From positions 10,805,001 through 10,869,000 of the forward strand of contig OY986436.1 in NCBI GenBank assembly GCA_963920525.1: DNA of 64,000 bases, in the 5' to 3' direction. Position 1 is the stretch's first letter, and every line of letters begins with the position of its first letter. A program made the position numbers and the translations under genes. Source of the stretch: Dichetophora obliterata (Eukaryota > Arthropoda > Insecta > Diptera > Sciomyzidae). The notes beneath the pieces are model-generated. The model did no database searches. It was given only the letters and a program-made list of their open reading frames with translations, and was not told the origin of the DNA. Shown here piece by piece: positions 9,131-58,920 of the stretch.

Positions 9131-9315
9131 GTTAACATCTTCAATATAAAAATGCTACAAAATTTTTCAAATTCATTACAGTAAAATTTTTGTTATCATA
9201 AATGTATCCATATTTCATTCCTCGTACGTTATTTTTCTTAGGTAGGTTACCTAATTTTTATTAGAAAATAAATTGCCTCTGTAGGCTATTCTGCTTATTG
9301 ACAACTGAAGGGAGG

Positions 9316-9518: not shown

Positions 9519-9760
9519 TTTTATTCCATTTTCATTTTGTGTGAACTACAGTGATTGGTGATTGCATCACCCACCCTGTTCTTCGATTGCATGACCCAAT
9601 CTGTTCATCGATTGCATCACCCAATCTGTTGTTATCAATCTTATCTTCTCGTGTTTCTCTCTCGTTATCGTCTCGTGCCATGCGTCGTACTGTACCTTTC
9701 ACTTTCTCTGTATACTTTACTGTTTTTGAAACGTGTGCGATTGTGCAGTATTACAGTGCA

Positions 9761-17711: not shown

Positions 17712-18214
17712 ATAGTTGGAATGGATTTCGGAAAAATATGAAATTATAATTTATAATTTCGGAAAAATATGAAATTATAATTTTTGCTGTAGTAAAGAAC
17801 TTATATGCATTTCAAATTCAAAATTGAAATGAGGCTAACAAAACATATTTTTAATATGGAATAAATATAATAGTAGTCAATATAATAAATAGCTCGAATT
17901 TATTATATTTAAAAAATAAATGTATTTTTTATAGCACAACAACCATGTGCAGTCTCTGCATATGTAAGAGAATTTTTTGTAGTTACATACCCAGTGGGCA
18001 TTTTAGCTAGTGTCACGCAAAAAAAGGCGTGCTAGTAGTGCTTTTATTGGCGTCAATTTACCTTCCATGACCACTGTATTGATGAGTGCTTTTGAAAGGC
18101 CTACCTATTGAAGGTTCTGAGTCTTTTCATGTTTTTTTATACGAAAATTTTTTAAAAAAATAAAATAAACAAACTGAAATTTAAAAAAAACTGAATTTAA
18201 AATAAACAAACTTT

Positions 18215-37005: not shown

Positions 37006-37145
37006 GTGCATTATTCTGTATCACGAACAAGCACACCAACGATGAGAAAGACACGAGAAGCAATACAATTTTGTATGGAAGAAAGTATTGCTTCTCGTGT
37101 CTTTCTCATCGTTGGTGTGCTTCTTCGTGATACAGAATAATGCAG
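37006..37145. mobile_element. 140-bp near-perfect foldback MITE, TTA target duplication
   Basis: Arms 37007-37066 and 37085-37144 are inverted copies with at most a couple of differences, around an 18-bp loop. TTA flanks both sides (37003-37005 and 37146-37148), and the paralogue shows a single TTA there. A 3-bp TTA/TAA duplication fits PIF/Harbinger-type MITEs. Relics lie at 26335 and 62764. Confidence 0.85.
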
Positions 37146-38045: not shown

Positions 38046-39026
38046 TCTACATATATGTATGTATATATTAAAGCCAAGAAAATTCTTTTGTTAAGCTTTA
38101 TAACACCATCACAAAAATATGCAAGTCTTTGCCAACAGCTTTGTATATTTTCTTTTTCTCTCTCTCCTTTCCTTCTTCACAAAACATTTATTAAATATTA
38201 TTTCAATTGAAAACAAATTTGTCCGCTTCAACATATCTAAATTGTTTTCTGTGCTTGTCTACTCCTCGAAGTATGCAACAATTTTTAGGGCAAACAACAA
38301 AATTTGGTTATCTTTTAAATAAGATTTGATGTCTCAATAAAATTACTGACAATAAAATCTATTAAATTGCCAGTCAACAAAGTGTAAACAAGATGTTGGC
38401 AAGCATTTTCACATCAACTACTGCATCCCACCCACACCAAGAGCATTGTCGATTTCACTCGCCTGCATTGAAAATTTGAAAATTCAGACAACTGACTACA
38501 ATGTCTGAGTGCATTGATAAATTTTTGCTCATTCCTTGAATCAGTTGTAGCAGCAGGAGCGTCTACTTCCGCCAGGAAGACATTTTATCTGTGCTACTGC
38601 ACAATGAATGTATTTTAAATTTGTATGCTTTCTACTTTCTTTCAACTACTCTACATCAAAATAGATTTTTGTGAAAATTCAACCGGATATGCAAAATTTT
38701 GCCTTTATCGCAAAATTGCACAGTTATTGTGGTAAAATTTTTTTTCGAGCAATATTATTTTTGACAAATGTCAGACAAAAATATCAGAAAAATGCAGGCG
38801 AACATGAAGTTAGTCAACAAAGTAAACAGAAATTATTTCAAGGATGTTCAAAGAAAAACTAAAGGACTAGTTTTGCATTGGCATTTCAAAGAAAACACAA
38901 TAAGTCTTAAAGTAAAGAAAGCAATTCGTTAATTGGAAATGTGGACAGTAAGTATTTATCTAAGGATTTATATCGCAACATATAATAAGTATAGAATAAT
39001 ATAGTTCACAATAAAACAGACGTTAC
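38046..39026. other. Unique AT-rich DNA
   Basis: No repeat family or gene is recognised. This is the left shoulder of the palindrome domain. Confidence 0.5.
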
Positions 39027-42000
39027 TCGCTTAAACGATATGATTTATATGTTTGATCATAAAAACTTCAGATATGACAAGGAAAAGAGTCTTAAAATGG
39101 AAGAATTAAAAATGTACAAAAGTCTTAAAACTATCAATTTATCGCTTAAGCGATTTTGGAAGCAATGAAGTATAAGATCGTTTGATGTTGATATGCAATA
39201 CTGTTGTATTTATCAAAACAAGAAGAAGCGTATAGAGAAAATTATTTTTTAAATTTTCGCTTAAGCGATATAATTTATATCTATTCTATTTTCTAGCTAT
39301 TTTCGACTCTTTTAAAGCGAAATTAGATGAACTGTTTAGAAAGTAGAAATAAAATATATTCCCAGGGTTGTAAAATATCAAAAAAAAAGGTTAAGAAAAT
39401 TGGTTTACATTTAAACAATTTGTGTAGAATTTGTGAGAGTATATGTCAAGTAGTATGTATTATCGTAACGATGATTGCTTTTATCGTTTTAACGATAAAC
39501 ATGCTAGAAACCGTTTTAAGAGCGGGTATTTGCTATTAAAGGAAATTTCTAATGTTTTAAATTATAAGCAAAAAAATCGCTTAAGCGATAAACATTAATG
39601 ATAGAGTTCGACAATTTTAATTTAACAAAATTTATGCTTAGAAACTCAGGAGTATTTTATTATAAGGGAATTAATTGTTTCCAATTATAAGCAAAGAAAT
39701 AATTCGCTTAAGCGATAAACATTTTCAGACATGTAAACAAATTTTCATTGAGTTCGAAAAAATTCGGTTTAAATTAATATAATTTTAGAAATGATTCAAG
39801 AGTATTTTATAACAAAGGGAATTATAAATGAATTAAGTTATGAGCAAGGAATAAATTCGCACAAGCGATAAACATAATTGGTAGAGTTTGAACAATGCTA
39901 TTTAAATTAATGTCATTTTAGAAAAAATCGAAGATTAAAGAATTTTCAATTAAAATAATAAATATTACAAATTGAACAATTTTTTTTATTAACCCTTTTA
40001 CGAGGAATGAGTGAAAAATAAGCCAGTTACATTTTTAAGTCGTGTGAGCAGAATTTTCGAGAAATTTTTATACAGTGTGGCTTAAGGATTAGAAATCAAT
40101 GTGGCTTTCAACGTGTGCCGCATTTTTCGAACTTGTTTTAATATGAAGAGGAAGAAAAAACTAGGTCAGTAAAAAAATATTTTTTTTTATAGATATATGT
40201 TAATCCCGATTTCTCAGAGACTATATATATATAGGTACCACAAACGATTTTTAAATACGAGGGGATGTATTTTCTCATCCCAATTATGTCAAAACCTTTA
40301 TGAATAAGCTACTCCAACAAAGTAAAAAATAAATTTACCGGATGGCGTTTTCCGGATTTTTCCGGATTTTTTCAATACTTGCAGTAAAATTTTTTAAAAA
40401 ATTTAAAAAATTTAAAACAATTTTTTATTTCACTTTTGTGTAGAAATATGCCATCTGTGATGACAATTCCACAAAAAAATTTTAGAATTTAAAGCGGTTT
40501 CCTTGTCGTCCTCAAAGGGTTAACAAAAGTTTTGGAAATTCAAGAGCATTTTATAAATAAGAGCATTTATAAGCAATGTTATGTTTAAATTATAAACAAA
40601 AAAATGAAATCGCTTAAGCGATAAGCATCAATGGTACATTCAAAACAATTCTATTTAAAGAAATGTAATTTCACAAGCAATTGAAGTATTTGATAAAGAG
40701 GACTATTTTTGAAAGAATTTAATTATAAGCGATACACATATACATATATTGAGTTCCAATAATTTTTTTAAAAATAATTAAAGTTTAAAACTAATTAAAA
40801 TAATAATTATAAGTTCAGAAAAAATCCTTTTAGCGATACACACAATGGCATAGTTTTAAAAATTCTATGTCATGTATTGTTATATTAGAAAAAAATCCAA
40901 TTAAAAGAAATTTTCGAAAGAATTTATTTAAAAGCAAAAAATAAAATCGCCTAAGCGATAATCGTAAATAGTTCAATACGAAATGTTTTATTTTAATTAA
41001 TAAAAGCTTAGAACAAATTTAAGAGTATTTTATAAATGAGAGATATTATAAGCAATTTTGAGTTTTAATTTTAAACAAAGGATAAGATCGCTTAAGCGAT
41101 AAACATCAATGGTACAGTTAAAACCACCCTATTTAAAGAAATGTAATTTCACAAGCAATTCAAGAGTATTTGGTAAAAAGGGAAATTTTTAAAAGAATTT
41201 CATTATGCGCGATACACATATACATACATACATACATTGAATTCCAACAATTTTTTAAAAATAATTCAAGTGTAAAAATGATTAAAATAATAATTATAAG
41301 GACAGAAAAAATCACTTTAGCGATACACACAATGACATAATTTGAACAATTCTATTTCATGTATTGTTATATTAGAAAAAATTAAATTCAAGAAATTTTC
41401 GAAAAAATCTATTTCTAAGCAAAGAATAAAATCTCTTATAAATGGTACACTTCGAACAATTTTATTTTAATTAATAAGAGTTTAAAAACAAATTTAAGAG
41501 TAATTTATAAATAAGAGATATAATAAGCAATTTTGAGTTTTAATTTTAAAATTGCTTAAGCGATGAACATTAATGATACAGTTAAAAGAATTCACACAAC
41601 AATACACACAATGGCATAATTTGAACAATTCTATATCATGAATTATTTTATTATAAAAATTAAATTAGAAGGAATTTTTGATAGAATCTATTTATAATCA
41701 AAGGATAAAATCGCCTAAGCGATAATCATAAATGATGCAGCAGGAACAATTTTTTTAATTAATAAAAGTTTAGAACCAATTTAGGACTATTTTATAAATA
41801 AGAGTATTATAAGCAATTTTGAGTTTTAATTTTAAACAAAGGATAAAATCGCTTAAGCGATAAACATTAATGGTACAGTTAAAACAATTCTATTTAAAGT
41901 AATTTAATTTCACAAACAATTCAAGAGTATTTGATAAATAGGGAAATTTTTAAAATATTTGCATATACATATATGTTGAGTTCCTACAAATTTATTAAAA

Positions 42001-43110
42001 ATTATTTAAGTTTATTAGTTTAGTATTAAAAAAAATATTTATAAGCACAGAAAAAAATCGCTTAAGCGATACACACAAAGGCATAATTTGAAAAATTCTA
42101 TTTCATGTATTATTATATTAGAAAAATTCAACTAAAAGGAATTTTTGAAAGAATATATTTATAATCAAAGGATAAAATCGCCTAAGCGATAATCATAAAT
42201 GGTGCAGCATAAAAAAATCGATACACACTATGTTATTATTGTAGCAATTCTATTTCATGTGTTGTTATATTAGAAAAAATTCAACTCAAGACATTTTCAA
42301 AAGAATCTATTTATAAGCAAATAATAAAATCGCCTAAGCGATAATCATAAATAGTTCAATACGAACTGTTTTATTTTAATTAATAGAAATTTAGAACAAA
42401 TTTAAGAGTATTTTATAAATGAGAGATATTATAAGCAATTTTGAGTTTTAATTTTAAACAAAGGATAAAATCGCTTAAGCGATAAGCATCAATGGTACAG
42501 TTAAAACAATTATATTTAAAGAAATTTAATTTCACAAGCAATTCAAAAGTTTTTGATAAAGAGGGAAATTTTTAAAAGAATTTCATTATGAGCGATGCAC
42601 ATATATATATATATTGAGTTCCAAGAATTTTTTAAAAATAATTAAAAAAAATTTATAGGGACAGAAAAAAATCGATACACACAATGGCATAATTTGAACA
42701 ATTCTATTTCATGTATTGTTATATTAGAAAAAATTCAACTCAAGGCATTTTCAAAAGAATCTATTTATAAGCAAAAAATAAAATCGCTTAAACGATAATC
42801 ATAAATGGTTCAATACGAAATGCTTTATTTTAATTAATAAAAGCTTAGAACAAATTTAAGAGTATCTTATAAATGAGAGATATTATAAGTAATTTTGAGT
42901 TTTAATTTTAAACATAGGATAAAATCGCTTAAGCGATAAACATCAATTGTACAGCTTATACAATTCTATTTAAAGTCATGTCATTTCGCAAGCAATTCAA
43001 GAGTATTTGTTAAGAAGGAAATTTTTTAAAAGAATTTCATGATGAACAAATAAAAAATCTTCAAGTTTAAAAATAATTTAAATAAGAATTACAAGCACCG
43101 AATAAAATCG
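39027..43110. repeat. Palindrome array 1: units around ATCGCTTAAGCGATA, partly in a ~470-bp higher-order repeat
   Basis: Palindromes close to ATCGCTTAAGCGATA occur at 39027, 39141, 39257, 39483, 39576, 39703, 39856, 40609, 40824, 40946, 41087, 41311, 41551, 41710, 41848, 42057, 42177, 42329, 42470, 42783 and 42923. From 40.6 kb on, four sub-units of about 115 bp recur in order. Their flanks are GATAAACATCAATGGTAC, GCGATACACATATACATA, TAGCGATACACACAATGG and GCGATAATCATAAATGG. The longer period is about 450-480 bp. Sequence between the palindromes diverges much more than the palindrome itself. Confidence 0.92.
39993..40519. mobile_element. piggyBac-like MITE inserted in palindrome array 1
   Basis: It starts CCCTTTTACGAGGA and, inverted from the right, CCCTTTGAGGACGA. 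TTAA lies directly outside at 39989-39992 and 40520-40523. The 527-bp interval has no palindrome units and no gene. It was evidently inserted into the array after the array formed. Confidence 0.82.
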
Positions 43111-45628
43111 CAAAACAATGCGGAGAGTATGCCTTGTTAAATATATTAGGAAAAAAGGCCATTATTTTTGTGTCGATAGGCAATAACAGCTTACGTCTGT
43201 ATTCAAAGTTTGGAGAAATCTTCAGCATCCATCAAGTCATTTGAAAGGGTTTTTTGTTTTTGAGTCAAAACTTTGGCTAAGGTCTTAAGCCGACTTAAGC
43301 CTTTATTGCTTATCGACACAGATTTATTGAAACTAATCAGCTTTTTATACAAAATGCCATGAATATCTATAGTTTTTTAAATATCTTAACGGTTTTCACG
43401 TCAAAACAACGGAAATTTTAAAGAGCTTACCATCAAGTAAGTATACAATCGCACACCCATTTCAAAAGTAACAAAACTCAAAATTTCCAAATTTTTTTCT
43501 TTTTCGTGTAAAACTGTTCGTAGTGACCATTTACATCGGCTGTCTTAATTTTGTTCTCATATTCTTAGTCTTTAGTTAACAAAAATTGTTTTCTCGTTTT
43601 TTTGTATGGAGTCTCTTGAAAAAAAAGTGTGTTTTGCTCCTTCTGAAAATGTATAAATTTTGAGGTGTTCACTTTTGAAGTGGGTGTGTGATATATTCGT
43701 TTTATTACATTAAAAAAAATTCTTATTGTAGGGCATCAGTAGGAGATCTAATCTCTTAAATTTTATTTCATGTCTTAAATTTACATAATTTTCTTATATC
43801 TCTAATGGTTAAGGAGTTTTTTGAGTTTTTTAATATTTGTTCTACAGCGCCCTCTTGTGTTCTACCTTTTGGATACCAATATAGCTTTGAATAATTGGGT
43901 CATTAAAAAACTGTTAAGTTGTTCACAAATTATGCGATGACAAGCAGACGCATCAAAAATTTTATGTATTATATTAATTTCAATATGCTGCTATGATAAT
44001 GATAATGAAAAAACGCTTAAGCGACAATTTTACAAACTTGCTGAAAAAATAATTTTATTTTTAATACATAAGCTAAACTAGTTGTTCATGATTTGTTTAG
44101 TAATTTTTTTTAAATTTCGCTTTATTCCTTGTAAGCTCTCTACTTTGTTTTGCTATTTAAAAAGATATTTCAACATGCTTACGCTTAAGCGAAAATCTCA
44201 TTAAGAACCAATAAAAATTGCTCGGTTCAAAAGAATTTCAAACTGAGCAATTCACACTGATTTACATCAAGGTTGTGCACAAAAGAAACCTTATAAATGC
44301 ACTCATAAAATGGAAAAAATTCTTTCTTTGGTTTGCATCAGCACTTATACGATACCAGATTTGGGCGCAAAATGTTTGTTGTTGCTGTTGTTGTTGATGA
44401 GTGAACTCTTTGTAAAAGACAAGCTACCAATCAATAGGTGAACCAACACCAGCAGTAGCAGCAACAACAGCAACAACAACAACCATGCACAAAATATTTG
44501 TAAGGAATCGGGCTGTGATCCAAAGGGGGCTGAAGGGGGAGGGGGGTGGGTTCAGGTCGGAAAGCTTCAATATAATTCAATTAGCGAATGGTAAAAACTT
44601 AAATTGGAAAACATGTCACCAACATAGGCACAGTGGGCACAAACAATGAAGCCTAAAAGCAAATTTTGTAGAATATCTGTGGAGGAAAATCTCAGCATTG
44701 TTCTGCACAACAATAATGTGCACTTGAGTGCATGTGCGAGAACGAGATAGACAGCTCAAAATGAAGAAGAAAAGGAGACAGCATTGCAATGAAAAACAAT
44801 TGATGACGGCTCATCATTGATGTATATGTTGAGGCTTCCGTTGTGGCTTACTTTGTTGTTGAAGTCGACATATTTTCTGTTTCATGCCGGAAACATGTGT
44901 TTTTTTTACCTGTGGTAAATTTTTTATATTTGTTATTGTATGGCTTAGCGTGATGATTGTCAGCAGAAATTTTATGCTTCAATAGTTGATGGTAGCGAAA
45001 AGAAAATAGGAGCAATAAAATTTTTCCTCGGAAAAACAATAACTGAAGCGCTTTGAGAATTATAAGCAAATAAAGCAAGAAATTTCACTTCTGGCACAGT
45101 TTTTCGTTTGTTGTGCTGCACCACAACTTTAATAAAATAGCCTCAAAAATAATAAGAGCAAATAATCTGCCAAGCATCTGACAAAAAGTTTGTCCTGTCC
45201 TCTGCTCTGCTGGCTGTCAACAAATCTTCTATACGAGAAAACTTTTCCCGCATTCCGTGAACGTGTTACGAAATTTTTGGAAAACATTACTAATTGAGGG
45301 ACATGTGTAGATGGTGTTATCGTTTTTGTTGTTATAATGAGTATTTGTAATTTGCGTTCAAAATAACATTGTAAATGTGTGTGAGACAAAAATAGGTGTT
45401 GCCCAACTTTTCATATGTGTTTGCTTGCTAGCTGCGCTGCTCCACATGTCTGTCTGGCGCAACGTTTGTCTCACTTGAAAGTCGGTGGAGCTCGGAGTTT
45501 CACTTTGTTTTGTTTGGCTTTCAAAAAACTTTCATTAAGAGCCAAATTTTACAATAGGTTAAGTTTTGATGCACTTTTTGCAAGTACCAAACTTTGTGTT
45601 GTTAGATTGTTGAGAAAGTTTTGTTTTT
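43111..45628. other. Mostly unique DNA between palindrome arrays
   Basis: Two isolated palindromes lie here: AACGCTTAAGCGACA at 44011 and ACGCTTAAGCGAAAA at 44181, neither inside a repeated unit. There are GTT/CAG microsatellites at about 44378-44398 and 44450-44485, and a G-rich tract at 44524-44552. The 86- to 94-residue open frames at 45129-45699 show no domain. Confidence 0.55.
44524..44552 (+). other. Guanine-rich tract, possible G-quadruplex
   Basis: Runs of five, five, six and three G occur within about 29 bp, in AT-rich DNA, satisfying the simple four-run rule. Confidence 0.55.
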
Positions 45629-47690
45629 ATCGCCTAAGCGATAAAACACGATATGGCCGTATGCTAAAGTTTTGTTGCAACAACCTATTATTGATATAAC
45701 AAGATTGTGTTGTATAATTTTGTAATTGAAAGTATTTCGTTACTAAAAAAAGTATATTTTTCGCTTAAGCGATAGTTGAATTAAGCGCTGAAATGAAAGG
45801 ATTTACACTATTTTGGAACTAATTTTAATGTATTGGTATACTTTATGCATGAAAAAGTATTAAATTAGTGCAAGCATGTGTTAATCGCTTAAGCGATCAT
45901 TCATTCAAAATGGTGTTTTGTAGTTTTGCCGTAATTTTTTGCTTTTTGTCAGTTATGACACTGAAATATTTGACGGTTAATATTTATATTAAGTGATTTT
46001 TTTCGCTCACGTGAGATTGTTAAGAAAGTTTTGATTTTAACGTTTATAGATAAAAGACGAGATGGTGGTATGCTTAAGCTTTGCTGCAACAAAGATTGTT
46101 ATTGATATATCAATAGTTTGTGTTGAGTAATTTTATAATTGAAAGTATTTTGTTTATAAATAAAATATATTTTTCGCTTAAGCGATAATTGAATTGAGCG
46201 CTGAAATTAAAGTATTTAAACTATTTCGGAACTAGTTTTAATGTATTGGCTTACCTTATGCATGAAAAAGTATTAAATTAGTGCAAGCATGTGTTAATCG
46301 CTTAAGCGATAATTCATTCAAAATGGTGTTTTTTTAGTTTTGCCGAAATTTTTTGCTTTTTGTAAGTATAACATTGAAATATTTGACGGTTAATATTATA
46401 TCGTAAGCGATTTTTTTTCGCTATCGTGAGAATGTAAAGAAAGTTTTGTTTTAACGATTATAGATAAAAGACGAGAAGGTCGTATGCTAAAGTTTTGCTG
46501 CAACAACAACTTATTATTGATATAACAATAGTTTGTGTTGAGTAATTTTGCAATTGAAAGTATTTTGTTTTAAAAGAAAATATTTTCGTTGAAGCGATAG
46601 TTAAATTGAGCGCTGAAATGAAAGTATCTTAATTATGTTGAAACTATTTTCAATTTATTGGAATACTTTATTCATGAACAAGTACAAAACTAATGCAAGC
46701 ATGTAGTAATCGCTTAAGCGATAATTCATTCTAAATGGGGTTTTTTTAGTTTTGCCGTAATTTTTTTGCTTTTTGTAAGTCATCACATTGAATATTTGAC
46801 GATTAGTGCCATATCGTAAGCGATTTTTTTTTCGCTAACGTGAGAATGTAAAGAAAGTTTTATTTTTAACGCTTATAGATAAAATACGAGATGGTCGTAT
46901 GCTAAAGTTTTGCTGCAACAACATCTTATTATTGATATAAGAATAGTTTGTGTTGAGTAATTTTGCAATTGAAAGTATTTTGTTTTAAAAGATAATATTT
47001 TCGTTTAAGCGATACTTAAATTAAGCGCTGAAATGAAAGTATCTTAATTATGTTGAAACTATTTTCAATGTGTTGGAATTTTTTATTCATGAACAAGTAC
47101 AAAACTAATGCAAGCATGTGTTAATCGCTTAAGCGATAATTCATTCAAAATGGTGTTTCTTTTAGTTTTGCCTTAATTTTTTGCTTTTTGTAAGTTATAA
47201 CATTGAAAAATTGACGGTTAATATTTATATCAAGCGTTTTTTTTTCGCTCACGTGAGATTGTTAAGAAAGTTTTGATTTTAACGCTTATAGACTAGACGC
47301 TAAAAGACGAGATTGTCGTATGCTAAAGTTTTGCTGCAACAACAACTAATTATTGATATAACAATAGTTTGTGTTGAGTAATTTTGCAATTGAAAGTATT
47401 TTGTTTTAAAGGAGAATATTTTCGTTTAAGCGATAGTTAAATTGAGCGCTGAAATGAAAGTATTTTAATTATGTTGAAACTATTTTTAATGTATTGGAAT
47501 ATATTATTCATGAACAAGTACAAAACTAATGCAAGCATGTAGTAATCGCTTAAGCGATAATTCATTAAATATGCTGTTTTTAAATTTAATTGTTTTTATT
47601 TTATTTTTGTAAGTTATTGCATTGAAATATTTTAATGATTTCTTACATGTCGCGTAAGCGATTTTTTCGCTTAAGCGAAAATGTTATTTT
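45629..47690. repeat. Palindrome array 2: five 412-421 bp higher-order units
   Basis: The palindrome with downstream GATAGTTGAATTGAGCGCTG recurs at 45760, 46173, 46585, 47000 and 47421. The palindrome within TTAATCGCTTAAGCGATAAT recurs at 45883, 46297, 46709, 47123 and 47544. Intervals are 412-421 bp. Each unit has two further, decayed sites, such as AAGCGATTTTTTTTCGCT, so the underlying sub-unit is again about 103 bp. The array closes with two adjacent palindromes at 47649 and 47666. Confidence 0.93.
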
Positions 47691-48431
47691 TATATTCGGA
47701 AAATCGAAAATTTCGTAGAAAATACTAAAACCAAATTTTGTTTAAAACTAATTGTATGCTTTTAATAAGTTTAAACTCTAATAATTTTTTAATTATTGAT
47801 ACTAATTTTTGAGTTCTGAGAAGAATTAGCCTGTATGGTAGAATAGTATCAAATTGATTGAGTGATAATTTTGGGTTTGGCGAAAACGTTATTTTCATAT
47901 TCAGAAAACCGAACATTTTTTCAAACATATAACAATTAATCTTTCAGCTTAAAGAAGAATTCTGGACAACATTTATTTAATTTATTTTGGAAAGTTTCAG
48001 CCATAATACTCGTTTATTTGCAACTATTTTTTATCTGTCTTTTTTTCATTTCTCCATTCTTACCATAGTACTTGAATCTTGTTATGTCATAAATATCGTT
48101 AATGCGCTTACAATTTTCACAAGTTCAAAGACCAAGCGAGATTTCCTCGCATTAACCTAATAAGATTAATGCCATTAAAAAAATTATGTTGCCTTGATGG
48201 ATTTGTGTCATCAACTTGGATTATTTCTAAGCTGTTGCACAGTTTTAACTTAAAATTTTATATTTTGAAAAAAGTGCAAACACAAGTAATATTCTTTCAA
48301 AAGAAATCTCAACCAGTGCTTGTAATTTTAGATTTAGTAATATTATAGTTTAAAAAAAGCACTTTGATATAGTTTAGTTTTTACCGAAATGACATCAGCT
48401 AGCGAGAAGAGCTATTTCTTGAGTGATAAAT
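47691..48431. other. AT-rich DNA between arrays
   Basis: No palindrome unit, gene or repeat end is recognised. Confidence 0.5.
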
Positions 48432-48682
48432 CTGTGGTCACAAGGAATAACGACTAAACTCAAAGTATCGTAAAAAACGATATTTTAATTGCAAAAACTA
48501 CTACCCATTTTTTTGAAATATATGAACCGTTACAAACAAAATATGTGCAAATATAAGTGATGATCAATTCTGGGTAAACAATGGATATCTATCTATATAC
48601 TTCCAAAAATTGGCAATAAAGTAAATTATATATCGCTTTTTTACGATATTTTGAGTTTAGTCATTATTCCTTGTGACCACAG
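48432..48682. mobile_element. 251-bp MITE with 52-bp inverted ends
   Basis: CTGTGGTCACAAGGAATAAC at the left (continuing GACTAAACTCAAAGTATCGT) is repeated inverted at the right with about three mismatches over 52 bp. AAAT lies on both sides, a possible 4-bp target duplication. The 147-bp middle is AT-rich and has no gene. Confidence 0.8.
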
Positions 48683-49856
48683 AAATAGTTCCTAAAACTT
48701 AGTTTAATACATTTTTTTGTAGATATTTTTGCAGAAATTTTTTTTTAATTTTAACTAATAATATGGAATAGAATTTCAATAATAAAACTGCTTTCGCTTA
48801 AGCGATATAGTTAAACAAATTATAAGTTTTCTGCTTTGAATAAAGAAAGTATGTAACCGGATACTTTGGAAAATTTTTTGTGATAACCGAATAAATTTGG
48901 ATAATTGTTGAAAAAAAAATATATCGCTGAAGCGAATTTTTCAAAAAATCATATTCTTCTTCCATTCGTTTTGATATACTAAGATTTAATTTTGAAAGAT
49001 ATATGAAAAAAGTAGTATATTGCTTAAGCGACAAAGTTGAAAAGAAAATATTTTTAGAACAAAGAATGATTTCTAACGAAACAAATATTTTCTAGCTTTA
49101 ACGAAAATGCTGAAATGTAAGTGATTTCCAAATTTTTTAAATTTTTGCCCAATAAAGAACAATTTCTGATGAAACAAAAAGTTAAGTTCGAAGCGAAAGT
49201 GCTAAAATACAAACAGATTTACTTTTTCTTAGAACTGTTTTTGACGTTTGATGGTTAATTTGAAAGTTAAGAAAAAATTACTTATCGCTAAAGCGACAAA
49301 TGTTAAAATGCTAAAATGTTGAAAGGTTCTGAACCGGTTCACTGAAAAGGCCCAAGGTGATGCAACAAGTGGAAATTGACAACGCCATGTGGTGGCAGAA
49401 TTGGGACTGTTTCCTTTCCCTTGGAGACCTATTGTGTGATTGGTTCAGAACGGGTTCTTTTCTCCGTAGGGTATATACAGATTTCTCTTTAAAATATTGT
49501 ACATTTTTCTTAGAACTGTTTTTGACGTTTTATGGCTAATTTGAAAGTAAATGAGTTAGAAAAAATGACTTATCGCCAAGGCGAAAAATGTTAAAATGCA
49601 ATAAAGTTTTCGTTTCAATATTGAACAATGAAGGTTAAGGGTTATAAGGCTTATTTTATTAAGATCTACATCTTGACTTATGATGACTTATCGCTTAGGC
49701 GAAAGTGTTAAAATGCAAAAAACTTTTTGTTCAATATTCATATTTTTGTTCATATTAAAAATAATTTTTGATTTTTAATTTTGAGTTTAATTCGGGCTCA
49801 AGGTCACTTTTGAATAAAAAACAGTCTTATATTTGTTTTTTAGTCTTCGTTTTATT

Positions 49857-49901
49857 GCGTCCAATATTTCGAACTCCACCGGAGTTCATCATCAGGGACA
49901 C
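49857..49901 (-). ncRNA. Hammerhead ribozyme, Penelope type
   Basis: Minus-strand order is: stem I strand GUGUCC (49901-49896), core CUGAUGA (49895-49889), one extra U, stem II GAACUCC-GGU-GGAGUUC (49887-49871), core GAAA (49870-49867), UAUU, and stem I partner GGACGC (49862-49857). Stem I pairs fully with one G-U; stem II has seven pairs. The cleavage triplet would be AUU, with the cut after 49863. Only UA separates A15.1 from U16.1, so a single molecule has no stem III. The four bases AUAU are self-complementary, which fits the two-molecule (dimeric) hammerheads known from Penelope elements. The U inserted after A9 is the main departure from consensus. Confidence 0.8.
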
Positions 49902-50102
49902 TGTTTTCAACAAAATATATACATTAATTACAATTTTTGACATTATAAAACACAAACTGAAAAACTTACATATTAAACATTAAACATAAAGTTTAAGACT
50001 TAACAATTTTGGTAGACATCACAGTGAGACAAAATTAACAGATATTGACTTAAAAATATATTGCAGCACCCTCGATTTCGCCATTTCGTTGTCTACTGAT
50101 TT

Positions 50103-50305
50103 TTATATTGTTGTTTGTTTCGTAATTAGGTGTCGGTAGCTTTGAGCGCATCTCTCAGTGTCCGTTTTGAAGTTTATTCTTTGTTTTGGTGGTATGTTTA
50201 TAATATGTAACATTTCTAACGTGTATCGTCTCGCGTAATTCGTCTCTTGTTGTAGAATTTGTACATTGTCGAAGTCTGGACAGTGATTTTTAAAAAAAAT
50301 CGTTC
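50103..50305 (-). pseudogene. C-terminal fragment of Penelope-like protein
   Basis: The minus strand, ending at TAA 50103-50105, encodes NHCPDFDNVQILQQETNYA, then RRYTLEMLHIINIPPKQRIN, then FKTDTERCAQSYRHLI. The words PDFDNVxIL, ETNYxxRxTLEMLHI and NxxTDTE are typical of the last part of Penelope proteins, after the GIY-YIG endonuclease core. Only about 63 residues remain before a stop near 50307. It has no function alone. Confidence 0.85.
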
Positions 50306-51028
50306 AAGCAAAAATATTGAAATATCCTTGTAATGTCTTTAAAAAAACTATAAGCAAAATTGTAAATTTTTGCTCGCTTTCCGCATTGAAGTTTTCGTTA
50401 AAAAAATAACAATTTTTAACAAAAAAGTAATTTATCGCTTTGGCGAAAGTGTTCAAATGCAAAATATTTCCACCAGATAGTATTGTAAATTTTTTTGCAA
50501 CCTGTGTTTAAGTCTTAGGCTTAGTAAAGAAAGATTTTTAACGAAAAAATAGTTTCTCACTTGAGTAAAAATTTTAAAATAGTCGTTAAAATAGTTTTTC
50601 TTGAACTACTTTTGCTGCTTTAGGATGAAATCCTATAAAAAATATTATTTTTGATAGAATTATAAAATTTTGAAATGTTTCTGGCAATGATTTGTATCAA
50701 AAAATAATTTATCGCTTAAGCGAAAATGTGAAAATGCCATTAGTTTCAACCTGAAAGTATTTAAAGGTTTTTCTCTCAACCCGAATTGAACTTTAAAGTT
50801 CAATAAAGAACGATTTCTGACAAAAAAATTGTTTCTTGCAACCCTCATTGAAGACGGACTTATAAAGCAGTATTTCTGACTAAGAAAAATATTGAATTGC
50901 TTAAGCGATAATGTTTAAATCATACAATCAGTCAAAAATATATACAATTTTTTCTTAAAACTCTTTCTGAAGTTCAGTTACCAATAAAGAAACATTTCTG
51001 ATAAGAAAGAGTTAATCGCTTAAGCGAT

Positions 51029-53484
51029 AAAGTTATTACTGTTTGCTAAAAAATATACCTAGCAAACTTGCAGAACAGATAAATAAAGCGACCAACAGAT
51101 AAAGTCTGCCCTAACTTTTTATCTGCACTGTGGAGCTGAACATTTTGGACATTTCAAACGCTCGTAAATCCGTCTGTAACCACAGCCGTATTTAATACAG
51201 TTTGCATTAAAAATATCCTGCTTCTACTCCAGATGTCTTTCATAAGCTGGCTCAACACAATTTTATCACACTTTACACGCATTTCACATTTAAATGCACC
51301 AGCTTTTTGATGTCATCTGGCAATGAAAACTTCAAAAATTTTTCGCTCGAAATCCGAGCTGAAGCTTTTAGTCACATAACTAAAAGTGTCAAAACAGGAA
51401 AAAGTTTTTGCTGTTTAATCGGGCTTAAAATAGCTTGCAGTAAGCAAAAATCAAGCATAAAGTATGATGACGACACCAACCCAATCTAGTGATGAGTTTT
51501 TCATGCTTATCCTAACTAAGTTTAAAATTAATCTTTGCTTATATTTTTGTTATAATCGTTTTTTGATAAGGTTTTTAAAGTGTTGAGCAAACGTTTTCAT
51601 GTGCCTTATTTTTTTACATTAACCTTTGATATAAATTAAATGCACGTTACAACATGCACTCAATTTTATAGCATGGTATGCTTTTAGGGGCGTTACTGCT
51701 GGATTATTTGTTGCCGCTCTTCTGTTGTCAACATTAGGAAAATTAAGTGGATTTTTGTTTGCGCAAAATTAAGTCGACTTTGGACTCCAACAGTGATAAA
51801 ACAACAAGCAAACAACAACAATGTTGAAATAATGGGAAGTGATCACAATAGCTTGTTGTTGTAGTTGTTATGAGATTTGCAATAAAATCGTAGTTGTTGT
51901 AACAAACACCTGACTCGATGCAAATAAAACAGATAAAACGAGAGAGAAAGAGATATAGCAATGACAACAAAAAACTTTTGCTACAACATATATGCAAAAT
52001 TAACTGCACAAAGTGTTTTTTTTCTGTCAAAAAAAATATGATAAAGGGATTTTGTGCACAGTTTTATTTCTCTAGCATTAATTAATAGCATGCCTTAAAA
52101 TATGCTAGGAAAAAGATAAATACGCTGATTAAATATTTGTGATTACTATTTAAATTTGTTTTTAAAATTTAATTTGACTCTAAATGGCAATTGAATAATG
52201 TAGAAGCCTAAAAGTAGACAATTTAATTTAATTGCTTTCATCAGGCACGTAGCTAGGATTTTCCATGGGGGTAAAAGGGTTTTGATAACAATAATGTCTC
52301 ATGGCAAGTTGTAAGGTAAGAAAAATAACGTCCTACGACAATTTTTTTGGTAATATCTTTTACAAATAGTTTGCTTCAAAATTTTCTTTATTTTTACAAA
52401 AAAACATTCAAATACATTGAAAACTGTAGATTTTTTTAGTACAATGCATTTTTTTCCAATTTCATCATCTCAGAATGAGAAAAAAACTATTTCAGATCCT
52501 TATGGTAAATAGGCACATGATATAATCCATTATTTTTCAAATATAATGTAGCTGGGAGTCCTAAAAATCCTTTTCTTTTTCAATTATCAATTACATTTGT
52601 TCAAACATGGCCGCCAAAGCCGTGATGATACCTGCCTTACACAGTAAGCGATGATGGGAGTAGGTATGCTGCTTATGACACACAAGGTAGAAGAGAACAA
52701 AAATAAAATGGAAAAACCCTCTCTACGTCAAGAACACAACAAAGAAGAAAAAGAACACACAGAAAAGAAACAAACTTTAATTTTTTCGAATATCAAATAA
52801 CATATTTAAGATTTAAAACTTCACTCATGCGAACATTTTCTGACGGTACAAACTATCAGCAAAATCGCCCAAGAATAAAAGTAAAAATATAAAAATTAGC
52901 CAAATGGAAAATATCCCAGAAACTGTATGAAATATGGCAACAAAAAAAAAAAACCAAAAAATGCTAAACACCTTTTGAAAAAATCATAAAACCTTGAAAT
53001 TTTGCCCAATATTTGTCAAAAACAAAAGGAAAAAAAGCCCAAAAATTAAAAAGGAGTTTTCACCAAAACCTATAAATTCCAAATATTTCAAAATGTTTGC
53101 TTTTTTGTTTTTCAAGCTTTCTCCTTTAGAATCGGTTTCATTTATATATTGTACGACAATTTTATAGTAAGTGAAATCGAGCGTTAAAAAATACTCAAGC
53201 CTAAAGTTTTCCTATTTAACAACATGTTTTCACAACATGTAAATCAATGAAAAAATTTCAATAAAATACATACTACAGCAATAATAACAAACAACAAAAT
53301 TGCTATGCAATTTTTTTTTTGCTCTCACACACTTTTTTCAACTCGGCCTTGCATTTATACACTATAAGTAATTTATTTTATGATATGAATTTATATGATA
53401 TGATTCATATGAAATGATATGATATGAAGTATTTAGACCTATCAGTAAGATAAAAGATACCTTCATTTACCCCCTTTGTCTTTC

Positions 53485-54734: not shown

Positions 54735-57626
54735 TCAACGACGGTACTGCAGGTAATCTATAATTTTATGTTTGATTGAGTCCATGGATTCACTTAAGGA
54801 TATAACATCAGATACAAAATTAAAATCACCGCAAGCGCTTCTAAGAGGTTCATTTTGCAAATAATTAGTTCTACAAAAGTTCATGTGGAGTAACTCAAAA
54901 GATCTTCTAGGACGAAGAGGAATATTAAAATATATTTTACTCAATAAATATGGACTGTTTACATAGCCATGTAAAAGTTTTATAATCCAACAAGCATTTA
55001 TCATAATTCTCCGATTTTTTAAAGACGGAAGATTTAAGAGTTGTAACCGATATTCATAAGGTGGTAAGTGAAAATCAGTATTACAATAAAGATAGCTTAA
55101 GCAAAACAAAAGAAATTGTTTCTGCACTGATTCAATGTCGTCTATGTAACAACCGTATCTTGGGCACCAAACAACTGAAGCGTATTCTAAGATAGGCCGC
55201 ACTAGGGAAGTGAATAAGGTTTTCGTTATGAAAGGATCATTAAACTCTTTTGCCCAACGTTTAATAAATCCTAAAGTACTATTTGCTCTATTTATTATTT
55301 TATTTACATGAATATTAAAGCGTAGTTTAGGATCCATTGTAACTCCAAGATCATTGAAGCTATCTAAGGACTCCAATGGATAACCACAAATTTTGAAGGT
55401 ACATTTAATTGGTGGTTTGCGCGAGAAAGACATATGCTTGCATTTCTTCATGTTGAGGTTCATACGGTTCGTTTTGCACCAGTTATGAAGATGATCTATG
55501 TCGGCTTGCAAAAATACAGCGTCATTATCATTTTTAAAAGAAAGGAAGAGTTTGACGTCGTCAGCAAACATTAAGATGCTGGAATGCATTATGACAGATG
55601 GCAAATCGTTTATAAAAAGTAGAAACAGAAGAGGCCCAAGATGACTTCCTTGAGGTACTCCTGAAGTAACAGGAAACTCGTGTGATTTCTTGAGCTTAAA
55701 AAGAACAGATTGTGTTCTATTGCTTAAGTAAGATTCAATCCACTTTACCAACGGTATAGGAAATCCAACAAGATGTAATTTTAAGATCAGTAGTTTGTGA
55801 TTTACAACGTCAAAAGCTTTGCTAAAATCCGTGTAAATGACATCAGTCTGCGTGCCTTTTCCAAAGTTTTCTATAGTTTTTGATGTAAATTCGAGAAGGT
55901 TAGTAACAGTGGATTTTCCAGAAAGGAATCCATGTTGGAAAGGAGACATTAAAGATTTAACGCTATGCGATAGTCGTGATGTAACAATTGCCTCTAAAAG
56001 TTTAGGCAAAGCGCTCAATTTTGCGATGCCACGGTAGTTATCAATTAAAGACCTATTTCCGGATTTATGCAGCGGAATGATAAATGAATGCTTCCAGGCT
56101 GCAGGAAAATAGCAGGATTTTAATGATGAAGTAAATAGTAAAGAGATTGGAGTTACTAATTCTTCACAGCAGTATTTTAATATACACGAAGGTATGTTAT
56201 CAGGACCACTTTTATATGATGTTTTAATATTTTTTAAAAATGATAAGACTGTGTTTGTGTCAATTATTGGGAAATATATATCCCCAGATTGAATATTGAA
56301 AGGATAACTTAAATAATCATAGGACGATGATGAATAAGTCGACTTGAAAAAGTCAGCAAAAAGATTGCAAATACTATTATCATTATCAGACTCAACCGAA
56401 TTATACTTCATAAAAGAAGGATAGGAATCAATCTTGCGTTTTGTGTTAACAAAGTTCCAGAAGGATTTAGCATCAGATTTGATGTTTAATTTTACTTTTG
56501 TTAAGTAGGTATTATAGGATTGTTTGCATAACTGTTGATAACTGTATTTAATCGAGGTATAGCATCCAAAATCACATATGTTATGTGTTTTTTGATATTT
56601 TTTATAGTATTTAGATTTCAAATTCCTCATTTTTCTTAATTCATTTGTATACCATACCGGACCCGATGTCAAGGAGGCTTTCCTTTGCGGAACAGCTTTA
56701 AGAAAACAATCATTGAGCGTTCTATTAAACGCATATACCGCATCATCAAGACTCTGAGAAGATAAACTATTTGTATTAATATTTAGAATAGAATTCCAGT
56801 TTATATTAGACAAGTTATTCTTCAAAATCACGTAGTTTGTTTTTTTAAAGTTAAACTCAATAGGTGGTTGAGAATCAGAATACTGCGCAGATGGTTTTGG
56901 AAAATTTAAAATAATTTCTAATGTTGGATGATGAGAATCTTCGGGTGTAACCAGAGGATCTGATTTAGACACAGAAGCGATATTGCTGTCATCAAAAAAC
57001 ACCAGATCAAGCAAACGATTATTTTTGTTAAAAATGCAGTTAAGTTGGAATAGCCCTTGGATTGAGAGCTCGTTTAAAAAGTAATTATCGGATGAACTTT
57101 CAGACGAAGGTAAAAATATTTCAGGAATTTCAGAACAGCAGTTCCAAGAAACGTTTGGCAGGTTAAAATCTCCAGTTATTAAAATATGATCATTTGATTG
57201 CAGTTTTGAGCAAACTTTACTAATAGAAGCCAAATGTTTGCTATAAACTCCTAAGGTAGAAAGGGGAGGAATATATGAGCATGTAATAAAAAGGCTCAAG
57301 GAACCAAACTTAACATGAACACAACAGAATTCAATGTCCAAGGATTCTGGAATTAATAACTCTTCAGAGAAATGTGTCGCTTTGACTGCAATCAACACAC
57401 CCCCACCTTTAGAGCAAATACCAGGAATGGAGTTTCTATCTTTGCGGTATATGTTAAATTTGTTGCACAGAATTTCAGTATTTAGAGTGTTAGGTTTCAG
57501 CCAAGTCTCACTAAAAGCTATTATATTAAAGTGAAGGTTGTGACTCAAAATTAATAAATTATTTAGTTTTGTGTTAATGCCACGAACGTTTTGGTAAAGG
57601 ATAAGGAACTGAAAGCAACAATCTAG
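54735..57626 (-). CDS. LINE ORF2: endonuclease and reverse transcriptase, no AUG start
   Basis: The frame is open for 963 codons from 57626 and its product nicks target DNA and copies element RNA in place. The first residues LILYQNVRGINTKLNNLL are the expected start of the endonuclease, which continues with AFSETWL and ITGDFNLPNVSW. The reverse transcriptase follows with SGPDNIPSCILKYC, IIPLHKSGN, DNYRGIAKLS, TDFSKAFDVVNHKL, SGVPQGSHLGPLLFLLFIND and MFADDVKLF (the catalytic Asp pair near residues 688-689 of this frame). There is no RNase H, and no stop or frameshift inside. No ATG precedes the endonuclease in this frame; the first Met is about 330 codons in. It therefore most likely depends on frameshifting from ORF1. 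Confidence 0.9.
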   Translation of the reverse strand, partial: LDCCFQFLILYQNVRGINTKLNNLLILSHNLHFNIIAFSETWLKPNTLNTEILCNKFNIYRKDRNSIPGICSKGGGVLIAVKATHFSEELLIPESLDIEFCCVHVKFGSLSLFITCSYIPPLSTLGVYSKHLASISKVCSKLQSNDHILITGDFNLPNVSWNCCSEIPEIFLPSSESSSDNYFLNELSIQGLFQLNCIFNKNNRLLDLVFFDDSNIASVSKSDPLVTPEDSHHPTLEIILNFPKPSAQYSDSQPPIEFNFKKTNYVILKNNLSNINWNSILNINTNSLSSQSLDDAVYAFNRTLNDCFLKAVPQRKASLTSGPVWYTNELRKMRNLKSKYYKKYQKTHNICDFGCYTSIKYSYQQLCKQSYNTYLTKVKLNIKSDAKSFWNFVNTKRKIDSYPSFMKYNSVESDNDNSICNLFADFFKSTYSSSSYDYLSYPFNIQSGDIYFPIIDTNTVLSFLKNIKTSYKSGPDNIPSCILKYCCEELVTPISLLFTSSLKSCYFPAAWKHSFIIPLHKSGNRSLIDNYRGIAKLSALPKLLEAIVTSRLSHSVKSLMSPFQHGFLSGKSTVTNLLEFTSKTIENFGKGTQTDVIYTDFSKAFDVVNHKLLILKLHLVGFPIPLVKWIESYLSNRTQSVLFKLKKSHEFPVTSGVPQGSHLGPLLFLLFINDLPSVIMHSSILMFADDVKLFLSFKNDNDAVFLQADIDHLHNWCKTNRMNLNMKKCKHMSFSRKPPIKCTFKICGYPLESLDSFNDLGVTMDPKLRFNIHVNKIINRANSTLGFIKRWAKEFNDPFITKTLFTSLVRPILEYASVVWCPRYGCYIDDIESVQKQFLLFCLSYLYCNTDFHLPPYEYRLQLLNLPSLKNRRIMINACWIIKLLHGYVNSPYLLSKIYFNIPLRPRRSFELLHMNFCRTNYLQNEPLRSACGDFNFVSDVISLSESMDSIKHKIIDYLQYRR

Positions 57627-58672
57627 TTTTTTTGATTCTTGTTAAAAACCGAAAAAGTAGCCAAGGAAGTTGTAGGCCGAGGTCTAGAAATAAATTCATG
57701 CACCATCGTATTGTCAGGCCAAAACTTTTGATCCAATACCTTGTGAAAAAGATCACCAGGCAAAGATATTTTAAAAGAGGACGTAATTCGCTCGTATGAA
57801 AAATTGAATTTGTAAACAGAGATATTTTTATTTACAACATTCAGCTTAGAGTTTATATAGAATAACACGTCTTCACCGGATGTATCAGCTGCAAAACGAG
57901 AAACAAATATAGATTTTGCAGGCTCAATAATCACAAGTTCTTTATGAACAGGGGCTTTGATACTGCTGTTCGATACTTGTGTCGGTATCGGTCCTGTAGA
58001 AACCGGAGTAATCTGAGAAGGTGCAGGGACCACATTTGAGGAAATACAAGTTTCAGCGTAAGTTTTTTTTGTGGCAGAAACGCGAGGAGAATCAGCATTT
58101 TCCTCTATGATTGGTATTGCTTCAACAGAAAGAGAAATCTGATCAGCTGACGCAGCGACCTTAGTTGGTGCGATATTATCAGTCATTTGATCAGTATTGA
58201 CAGCACCAATTGATTGATCTTCAATCTGTATGTTCACATTAGGGAAAACAGTTAAAGTAGAAGGTAGAACAGTATTATTATTGGGTGACGGCATGGCTAT
58301 ATCAGTAGTTTTAGCTGAACTACGAAGATTTTTGTTTGAACGTTTACGTTTTGGAGAATTGTAAGCTTCCTCCATAATTTTAAACTTTTTAAACAAATCT
58401 TCGTATTCACTCAGTCTATCTTGTGCTACCTTTAGATCCTTAGCCACCTCCAAAAAACCTTTCCGAGATTGTCTAATAAGTTTAAAGATCTCAACGTTTG
58501 TAAACCTGCAATCTTCACATGACCAACGAAGTCCCTTACTTTCGTTGAGTGCATCGAAGATCCTCGCAGTCAACGCTGCACATTTGATGTGAAAAAATGA
58601 ATCACACAACCAGCAAGTAACCAGCCGGTCTGATTCACCCTTTACAGCGCAGTTTCGGAAATTGCAGATCAT
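57623..58672 (-). CDS. LINE ORF1 protein with PHD-like zinc finger
   Basis: This 349-residue protein probably binds element RNA or target chromatin in the retrotransposition particle. The start ATG is at 58672. Residues 3-55 carry a Cys4-His-Cys3 finger: C3, C8, C20, C23, H28, C31, C52 and C55, with WSCEDC closing it. This is followed by a charged segment of about 60 residues (FLEVAKDLKVAQDRLSEYED) that could be a coiled coil. A basic patch KRKRSNKNLR comes next, then a Ser/Thr/Pro-rich middle. The C-terminal domain (about 245-345) contains SIFVSRFAADTSGEDVLFYI, like the folded domain of other LINE ORF1 proteins. The frame is intact. It ends CAA AAA AAC TAG, where ORF2 joins in the -1 frame. 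Confidence 0.85.
   Translation of the reverse strand: MICNFRNCAVKGESDRLVTCWLCDSFFHIKCAALTARIFDALNESKGLRWSCEDCRFTNVEIFKLIRQSRKGFLEVAKDLKVAQDRLSEYEDLFKKFKIMEEAYNSPKRKRSNKNLRSSAKTTDIAMPSPNNNTVLPSTLTVFPNVNIQIEDQSIGAVNTDQMTDNIAPTKVAASADQISLSVEAIPIIEENADSPRVSATKKTYAETCISSNVVPAPSQITPVSTGPIPTQVSNSSIKAPVHKELVIIEPAKSIFVSRFAADTSGEDVLFYINSKLNVVNKNISVYKFNFSYERITSSFKISLPGDLFHKVLDQKFWPDNTMVHEFISRPRPTTSLATFSVFNKNQKN
57626..57632 (-). promoter_or_regulatory. Candidate -1 ribosomal frameshift site A AAA AAC
   Basis: In the ORF1 frame the codons read CAA AAA AAC TAG, so the canonical slippery heptamer A AAA AAC sits immediately before the ORF1 stop. A one-base backward slip continues with CTA GAT TGT and enters the endonuclease frame without a stop. 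I see no strong stem-loop within the next 40 bases, which is the weak point. Confidence 0.6.
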
Positions 58673-58920
58673 TTTCAGTTTAATAGTAAGTTTTGCAATA
58701 TAGATGAAAGTAAAAGGAGAAAAATGAACTTAAATGCTTTTAGTGAAAAACAGTTTATTTTGTTTAAAGACACTGTACTGTAGAAACTTTGCAGCCCTGA
58801 TTTTATAGAACCAACGAATTGAAAAGTTTTATAAGCACTAGAGTTTTTGCAGTAGCGTGAAAACAGCTGTAAAAGTAAATACAATAATTTGCTCTATAGA
58901 AACCTGTTTGCGCTAAAAAC

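Follow-up and report, generated by a model that had tools for sequence, protein, structure and literature searches.

A cluster of palindromes in a diverged background

A 64,000-nucleotide stretch of the Dichetophora obliterata genome (the window) contains a 12-kb domain in which one short palindrome recurs while the DNA around it changes from array to array. What keeps the palindrome in place? The initial annotation reported more than 40 copies, confined to positions 39027..51028, and suggested a binding site for a dimeric protein. Both the number and the confinement were borne out. In 39.0-51.0 kb we found 43 sites that share at least 10 of the 12 bases of the dyad TCGCTTAAGCGA; 21 of them are perfect. 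The sequence CGCTTAAGCG occurred 23 times in the window, always between 39143 and 51026 (0.05 expected from dinucleotide shuffles), and TATCGCTTAAGCGATA with up to three mismatches gave 43 matches, all within 39025-51029 and none elsewhere in the window (0.32 expected). Each of these 43 matches carries at least one mismatch; the exact 16-mer that had been given as the palindrome has no match in the window or in a search of the 1.31-Gb genome.

The constant part of the dyad is TCGC-nnnn-GCGA with A/T on either side, and the centre is TTAA in 57 of 90 sites. The spacer variants CTAA/TTAG, TGAA/TTCA and TAAA/TTTA are present in both readings, as would be seen in a strandless dyad. Matched changes in both arms had been claimed for three variants; this was true only of ATCGTTTTAACGAT, since TCGCCAAGGCGA is matched in the centre and TCGCCTAAGCGA is one-sided. 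The arm-compensated variant, TATCGTTTTAACGATA, lies at 39482 in array A2. Table 1 lists the parts of the domain.

Table 1. Organization of the palindrome domain (positions in the window)
Feature	Position	Description
Array A1	39025..39270	three dyad sites, 115 bp spacing
Array A2	39482..39870	four sites
Dispersed repeat	39988..40523	inside domain, separate from arrays; copies in the flanks of the C1 domain
Array B	40608..42938	older higher-order repeat in which part of the sites have decayed or been deleted
Two isolated sites (ACGCTTAAGCGA)	44011..44194	left edge of core segment
Core segment	44195..45627	GC 0.37; without sites at 10/12 or better
Array C	45628..47632	about five copies of a 415-bp unit
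Site pair closing array C	47648..47680	two sites 17 bp apart
Short dispersed repeat	48426..48690	inserted between arrays; copies in the flanks of the C1 domain
Array D	48792..51029	ten sites, highly diverged contexts

By the test used, the flanks of array A1 are related neither to one another nor to those of any other site, and only two of the ten array D sites have flank similarity in common. Three of the four array A2 sites group by their flanks with the array B family. In array B, eight dyad bases are missing at about 42217 and 42671 compared with the sister copies, and each array C unit holds up to four dyads, variously preserved.

A second domain on a different contig

A second domain was found on a different contig of the same genome (C1:23,108,232-23,117,689), with 40 sites, 13 of them perfect. 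Together the two domains hold 83 sites at 10/12 or better in 23.2 kb. The flanks, with 2 sites in about 155-160 kb, would predict 0.3, so that the domains display the excess of one word in a short stretch that defines a homotypic cluster. The excess over background was concentrated in perfect and one-off sites in both the window (21, 18, 4, 8 and 4 sites at 12, 11, 10, 9 and 8 matches) and the C1 domain (13, 17, 10, 7 and 2 sites). The C1 domain had an additional excess of about 21 sites at 7/12 matches, which is what decay relics might give.

Of the 66 perfect cores in the genome, 61 were placed, and among these, domains were found only on C1 and on C2, the contig of the window (10.84-10.86 Mb). 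Outside the clusters there were about 30 perfect cores, compared with 21 for a reversed control pattern; the even genome-wide spread that the initial annotation had associated with an ordinary transposon was not seen for the core. Perfect cores outside the domains are single except for one pair on C6, which was rejected as a third domain because the tandem repeat that holds both cores is foldback-like and differently composed. The two domains share the plan arrays, core, arrays, and both lie 4-7% in from one contig end (10.8 of 268 Mb and 23.1 of 317 Mb).

Conservation of the dyad arms

The site and conservation analyses cover the genome of this single species. The 90 sites analyzed (47 and 43 in the two domains) fall into about 40 contexts with unrelated flanks. 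Among 2021 between-locus flank pairs, the mean z was 0.4 and the highest 3.9, which is near null, and no clear flank relation between the two domains was found in these pairs. That the dyad is kept against an unrelated background is well supported, also by the second, unlinked domain.

In older duplicate pairs, the arms diverged by 0.044 and 0.053, compared with 0.167 and 0.198 under a neutral model run with the same site filter, while the centre diverged by 0.203 and 0.289, compared with 0.191 and 0.241. In these older duplicates the TCGC/GCGA arms evolved about 4 times slower than neutral, and the central 4 bp drifted freely. Using a filter that treats all positions alike, we found mismatches at 22 of 448 arm positions and 27 of 224 centre positions (P = 0.0014), the centre being the part of the core that varies most. 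Flank sequences that match by chance showed no arm/centre bias of that kind (61/224 vs 21/112 at 9/12). Across these analyses, site pairs within a family are not independent of each other, and resemblance to the core was the criterion by which sites were selected.

The claim that the dyad evolves more slowly than its surroundings fared differently with the age of the copies. It held in the older pairs and across the 40 contexts. Among recent duplicates it held mildly in array C (core, 0.114 vs 0.144) and array P (0.071 vs 0.145) and failed in the partly misaligned array Q, where the core was not slower (0.185 vs 0.164). In the youngest pairs it was reversed, with arms faster than flanks (0.081 vs 0.047). 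Since constraint is weak or absent in recent duplicates, selection, if real, would act on the array rather than on each copy.

Site words outside full sites were 1.3- to 2.6-fold enriched in the window (five words; 0.2- to 0.8-fold for three control words) and inconsistent on C1 (0- to 1.9-fold; controls, 0- to 2.1-fold). Lone half-sites are enriched at most mildly.

Core segments and gene context

Both domains bracket an unrelated core that is free of good sites. The two cores had no clear homology to each other, and a promoter shared by both domains was rejected, the best core-core match having an E value of 0.012. The core segment in the window, which gave no matches in 222 kb of nearby DNA, is possibly a promoter or exon. 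When ORFs were ranked and 10 of them scanned against Pfam, transposon genes were the only genes identified; no coding exon was seen near either domain and no coding gene in the cores, with all but about 10 kb of the C1 stretch covered. Six matches to known RNA genes in the window (up to E 1) all scored under their own gathering scores, no Rfam family reached its gathering score in the 130-kb region that surrounds the C1 domain, minus about 10 kb, and the window contained no tRNA.

A putative binding-site platform

The clustering, the second domain, the conserved arms and free spacer of older copies, the lack of RNA covariation (see below) and the array turnover were computed directly; a protein, its dimeric binding and gene regulation are what we infer. 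We consider it fairly probable that both domains are regulatory loci made of binding-site clusters for one putative dimeric DNA-binding protein and renewed by local tandem duplication. One protein would read w-w-TCGC-nnnn-GCGA-w-A as a dimer at two unlinked non-coding domains, contacting the TCGC/GCGA half-sites and tolerating changes in the 4-bp spacer (usually TTAA). Segments of roughly 115-480 bp, each with one or more sites, would duplicate locally in tandem and so renew the number of sites, and single sites would decay and then be replaced, so that selection would fall on the whole array. The arrays, which flank a core free of good sites, may form a many-site protein platform (a regulatory, insulator or tethering hub), presumably located in a long gene, at its start or in its first intron. 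No description of the dyad site was found in the literature, at the level of the listed titles and abstract openings, using CGCTTAAGCG, TATCGCGATA, GCTTAAGC and topic searches.

If a protein does bind, the domains would be a clear example from nature of satellite-like DNA that evolves as a regulatory array: the background turns over but the binding word persists, and only two such places were found in a 1.3-Gb genome. The 16-mer and about 80 natural variants would be a ready bait for a protein search, and the variants themselves would allow the rules for half-sites and spacer to be tested. With the arrays one could also ask whether shared array DNA co-regulates two unlinked loci. A more tentative and rather doubtful extension is a lineage-specific nuclear organiser, in which one dimeric protein would use two unlinked, fast-turnover arrays around promoter-like cores and the two loci would be jointly controlled in trans. 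If so, selection would act on array length, and the repeats would supply docking sites that can be renewed.

Alternative explanations

The dyad sites could instead serve chromosome behavior, as a pairing, tethering or cohesion platform that links the loci in trans or anchors them at the nuclear envelope. The presence of the same site at two unlinked loci whose DNA is otherwise unrelated, each near a contig end, is in keeping with this idea. A word serving as a pairing centre would be expected at one region of each chromosome served, and domains were seen only on C1 and C2 among the placed cores; nematode pairing centres, according to PMC9908027, each recruit one of four proteins, so the word need not be on every chromosome. 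We regard this explanation as unlikely: with some 40 sites in about 10 kb, each domain is compact and surrounds a core of different, exon-like composition, which would favor gene control.

An ancient neutral satellite, whose monomers descend from one palindrome-holding repeat and in which the palindrome survived by chance, gene conversion or recent amplification, would account for the tandem and higher-order organization, the decayed or deleted sites, the weak constraint on recent copies and, for the window, a mild excess of half-site words. It would also fit several weak matches between the two domains, many on opposite strands, among the first 40 matches listed; the best of these 40 were 42 bp at 86% identity (E = 1.6e-6) and 79 bp at 73% (E = 5.5e-6), and they include the palindrome and AT-rich DNA. 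However, cores are mostly perfect or one-off even though most flanks cannot be aligned, gene conversion would carry flanks too, and the slow arms and free centre, in older pairs and across contexts, also speak against neutrality. We judge a purely neutral origin quite unlikely.

It is very unlikely that the arrays are transcribed into a long non-coding RNA in which the dyad recurs as a hairpin. TCGC-nnnn-GCGA is able to form a stem with a tetraloop, and the loop is variable and the stem less so. Folding of single units was equivocal: two of four were more stable than shuffles (z = -2.3 and -2.5), and two were no better. The arm changes and their wobble direction disfavor the hairpin. None of 22 changed arm pairs was compensated at 10/12 or better (6 G-U, 9 C-A, which is the opposite type, and 7 other), and only 1 of 57 was at 9/12 or better (13 G-U, 21 C-A and 22 other), so that the changes prefer pairing on neither strand. 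The spacer variants in both orientations and the lack of an Rfam family at gathering score in the region searched around C1 also speak against it.

We think it highly improbable that the palindrome is the junction of head-to-tail TTAA-inserting elements with GCGATA... ends, or another transposon relic. The usual TTAA centre and the tandem units would agree with such a junction, but conservation within the core is lowest at the centre, other perfect cores in the genome occur singly apart from the C6 pair, and three aligned arrays had no clean empty sites. Moreover, none of 12 array segments had relatives in 222 kb of nearby DNA, a search in which three control repeats gave 7, 5 and 7 matches (self matches of the first two included). 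A bacterial or viral origin was rejected: the 14-mer occurred once in each of 78 viral stretches, no viral contig in the collection had two perfect sites 98-128 bp apart, and of the four bacterial contigs with such pairs (L113-L116), the two examined, L113 and L116, are tandem repeats with cores 42 bp apart.

Comparison with known systems

The putative binding-site platform resembles several known systems in part. In CENP-B satellites, a protein-box-like word is likewise kept in diverged monomers; the dyad here is symmetric and lies in two domains of about 10 kb rather than in megabase arrays. The CENP-B box, TTCGnnnnAnnCGGG, was absent from both strands of both domains. Polycomb response elements have clustered PHO (GCCAT) and GAGAG words, and the raw counts in the two domains (both strands) were 16 and 3 for GCCAT and 8 and 3 for GAGAG. 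The comparisons with CENP-B and with Polycomb or insulator sites made in the initial annotation stand as analogies only. Baculovirus hr regions and the EBV family of repeats are palindrome arrays for dimeric proteins, acting as enhancers or origins; the arrays here are host chromosomal.

The DRE, bound by BEAF-32 and DREF, is TATCGATA (PMC8759638). The outer halves of that dyad, TATCG/CGATA, resemble many sites here, whereas the halves here are TCGC/GCGA with a 4-bp spacer. The DRE itself occurs in neither domain (ATCGAT, 2 and 1 times). In Caenorhabditis elegans pairing centres (PMC9908027), the sites of one protein (ZIM/HIM-8) are also gathered at particular chromosome regions; the domains here are compact (10 kb) and lie at two loci. 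Homotypic transcription factor clusters in enhancers and insulators differ in that each locus here spreads about 40 sites over some 10 kb, as a product of tandem duplication, and only two such loci, with a putative binder, were found in 1.31 Gb. What the domains have in common with them is dense copies of a single site, in non-coding DNA, around a site-free core.

Results

We counted the dyad TCGC-nnnn-GCGA, which has a 4-bp centre (usually TTAA) and A/T flanks. In the window, CGCTTAAGCG occurred 23 times (0.05 expected), and the extended 16-mer was matched at 43 places with up to 3 mismatches (0.32 expected), all of them within 39025-51029. The initial annotation had described palindrome copies clustered in this domain and absent elsewhere in the window, as was found; the exact 16-mer that it gave was absent from both the window and the whole-genome search, the matches carrying mismatches. 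When two 6-base arms (at least 9 of the 12 arm bases) were scanned with loops of 0 to 10 bases, the 4-base centre stood out, with 53 matches in the domain and 14 elsewhere in the window. Other loops gave 1-12 matches in the domain versus 6-12 outside, a small excess for some (loop 6, 12 versus 11), the domain being about one-fourth as long as the rest.

The window corresponds to C2:10,805,001-10,869,000 of a genome of 1,312,693,994 bases in 76 contigs, probably that of a higher fly, to judge by a Mos1-like mariner transposase, the size of the genome and CAA-rich stretches that look like exons. In this genome, the perfect core TCGCTTAAGCGA occurred 66 times and its reversed control 21 times. 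The window's domain held 21 perfect cores, and a second domain on another contig (C1:23,108,234-23,117,689) held 13. A further two formed a pair on contig C6, and the other 30 were close to the control figure. The genome-wide count proposed with the initial annotation thus showed clustering at two domains, with placement for 61 of the 66 cores (50, and 11 more located with one base added to the query); further clusters consisting of degenerate sites alone may exist. The C6 pair, 223 bp apart, was rejected as a further domain; it lies in a different element, a foldback-like tandem repeat of ATCGCGCATTCATCGCTTAAGCGATCGAAAAGCGAT units (G000:C6:9,564,133-9,564,833; 9133-9833 of fetched stretch L111).

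The C1 domain (C1:23,108,232-23,117,689) contained 40 sites with at least 10/12 matches, in 314-bp and 267-bp tandem units, unlike those of the window, and in single contexts. The two domains together hold 83 such sites in 23.2 kb versus 0.3 expected, a value that stays at 0.3 despite a background length understated by about 5 kb. Both domains share a layout of arrays on either side of a core segment without such sites (see the table). Within the C1 core were one 9/12 match, at 23,113,373, and, near 23,115,415, a donor-like CAATTAAG/GTGAGT. No clear homology between the two cores was found on comparison.

Features of the two domains and the window
Feature	Position	Strand	Comment
Core segment, window's domain	44,195-45,627		No site at ≥10/12
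Dispersed repeats within window's domain	39,988-40,523 and 48,426-48,690		
Core segment, C1 domain	about 23,112,950-23,115,580		No site at ≥10/12
Mos1-type mariner transposase	window 3207-4268	-	Open 354-aa ORF; PDB match, E 3.8e-150
548-aa ORF, probably transposon gene	window 9959-11602	+	DUF7869 match above Pfam cut-off
Tandem array, very AT-rich	window 18199-19974		Unit about 240-271 bp
AU-rich hairpin	window 37038-37115		Several microRNA matches, all sub-threshold
Non-LTR retrotransposon	window 54738-57638 and 57626-58729	-	Reverse transcriptase ORF and upstream ORF; the latter with a PHD-finger-like match below Pfam cut-off

Transposons aside, no coding exon was recognised in the window, its 40-kb surroundings, or a 130-kb stretch (less about 10 kb) spanning the C1 domain. 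The window's domain is preceded, some 46 kb upstream, by a CAA-rich exon-like stretch (about 1640-2944 of fetched stretch L108; C2:10,796,640-10,797,944) that ends in a donor-like CTG/GTAAGT. Each domain may belong to a gene's promoter or to its long first intron.

Flank alignment scores (z of at least 4.5 versus shuffled flanks) were then used to group 47 window and 43 C1 sites (at least 10/12, or 9/12 with at least 7/8 arm bases). This gave 40 contexts, comprising 12 families of 2-16 members and 28 singletons; stricter cut-offs gave 41 (z 6) and 45 (z 8). Flanks of 2021 pairs between loci had a mean z of 0.42 (best of two strands), a maximum of 3.9, and 0.2% above 3. The strongest of the weak matches listed by blastn between the domains spanned 42 bp (86%, E 1.6e-6) and 79 bp (73%, E 5.5e-6), on opposite strands, and contain the palindrome and AT-rich DNA. 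Among 46 window sites from different arrays, gapless identity was 0.70-1.00 per position at 16-mer bases 3-14, against flank values of 0.26-0.40 for each bin of four bases, a contrast partly built in, the sites having been picked by core. A palindrome kept amid differing surroundings, as originally claimed, is well supported.

Recent duplicates gave a weak signal of constraint, with core versus outside divergence of 0.114 versus 0.144 in array C and, in two further arrays, 0.071 versus 0.145 (P) and 0.185 versus 0.164 (Q, partly misaligned). Related flanks were found in 147 of 4005 site pairs, which have members in common and so are not independent counts. Across bins of mean flank divergence 0.047, 0.151, 0.238 and 0.335 (n = 34, 51, 43 and 19), arm divergence was 0.081, 0.051, 0.044 and 0.053, and centre divergence was 0.081, 0.064, 0.203 and 0.289. 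When neutral change was simulated in a simple way and the site filter was left unchanged, the values were 0.048, 0.123, 0.167 and 0.198 for arms and 0.049, 0.132, 0.191 and 0.241 for the centre. Arm divergence therefore plateaus near 5%, whereas the centre drifts. Slower substitution, expected if the palindrome is a binding site, was seen in the arms of older pairs, while the signal in recent copies was weak or absent and the youngest bin was reversed (arms 0.081 versus flanks 0.047). After deduplication (one entry per family and core; filter even across all 12 positions), mismatches numbered 22/448 in arms versus 27/224 in the centre (p = 0.0014), and at the 9/12 filter 58/608 versus 51/304 (p = 0.0023); chance flank matches gave 61/224 versus 21/112.

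For sites with 12, 11, 10, 9, 8 and 7 matches, the window exceeded background by 21, 18, 3.8, 8.3, 3.8 and -5, and C1 by 13, 17, 9.9, 6.9, 1.6 and 21. Outside full sites, the site's words AAGCGA, AGCGAT, AGCGAA, TTAAGC and CTTAAG showed an enrichment of 1.3-2.6 fold in the arrays of the window, where three control words stood at 0.2-0.8; the C1 figures were 0-1.9 fold for the site's words and 0-2.1 for the controls. Decay relics may therefore be present at a mild level. Two sites (about 42217 and 42671) lack eight bases of the dyad relative to sister copies; in the 415-bp unit, which has four dyads, one was near-intact (11/12) only in the first copy. Array turnover proceeds via tandem duplication.

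A search of 222 kb of this genome, from the flanks and other fetched stretches, gave no match (E 1e-4) to any of 12 array segments or to either core, while three control repeats had 7, 5 and 7 there (self matches counted for the first two). A related satellite may exist elsewhere in the genome. Tandem repeats carrying the same dodecamer four times each, with cores 42 bp apart or multiples thereof, occur in a Treponema MAG (L113 5241-5420) and a Prevotellaceae MAG (L116 6157-6294) and are unrelated to the window.

Arm changes at 10/12 comprised 0 compensated, 6 G-U, 9 C-A and 7 other (at 9/12, 1, 13, 21 and 22), and spacer variants were accompanied by their reverse complements. The dyad therefore fits a double-stranded DNA site, while an RNA stem has no support, with no compensated change at 10/12 and G-U pairs at 6 versus 9 C-A. 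The outer left base was T in 42/43 C1 and 22/47 window sites, and the outer right base was A in 35/43 and 42/47.

Discussion

One dyad recurs at two loci in many contexts, and older copies keep the half-sites while the spacer is free. We propose that a putative dimeric protein would bind the dyad, that many sites would work jointly, and that selection would maintain enough sites per array, not each site singly.

The DRE (TATCGATA) is read by BEAF-32 and DREF (PMC8759638). Many dyad sites have an outer TATCG/CGATA that resembles it, but the DRE itself is absent from both domains. The likeness to BEAF-32/DREF sites is a lead towards BED-type zinc fingers, which could be candidate binders. A pairing-centre logic (PMC9908027) would be a weaker analogy that may still apply. 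Among the records listed by a literature search, mostly outside subscription papers, there was no account of this dyad site or arrangement. Homotypic binding-site clusters are already known; the arrangement here would be a putative case, with a make-up of satellite-like arrays at two loci.
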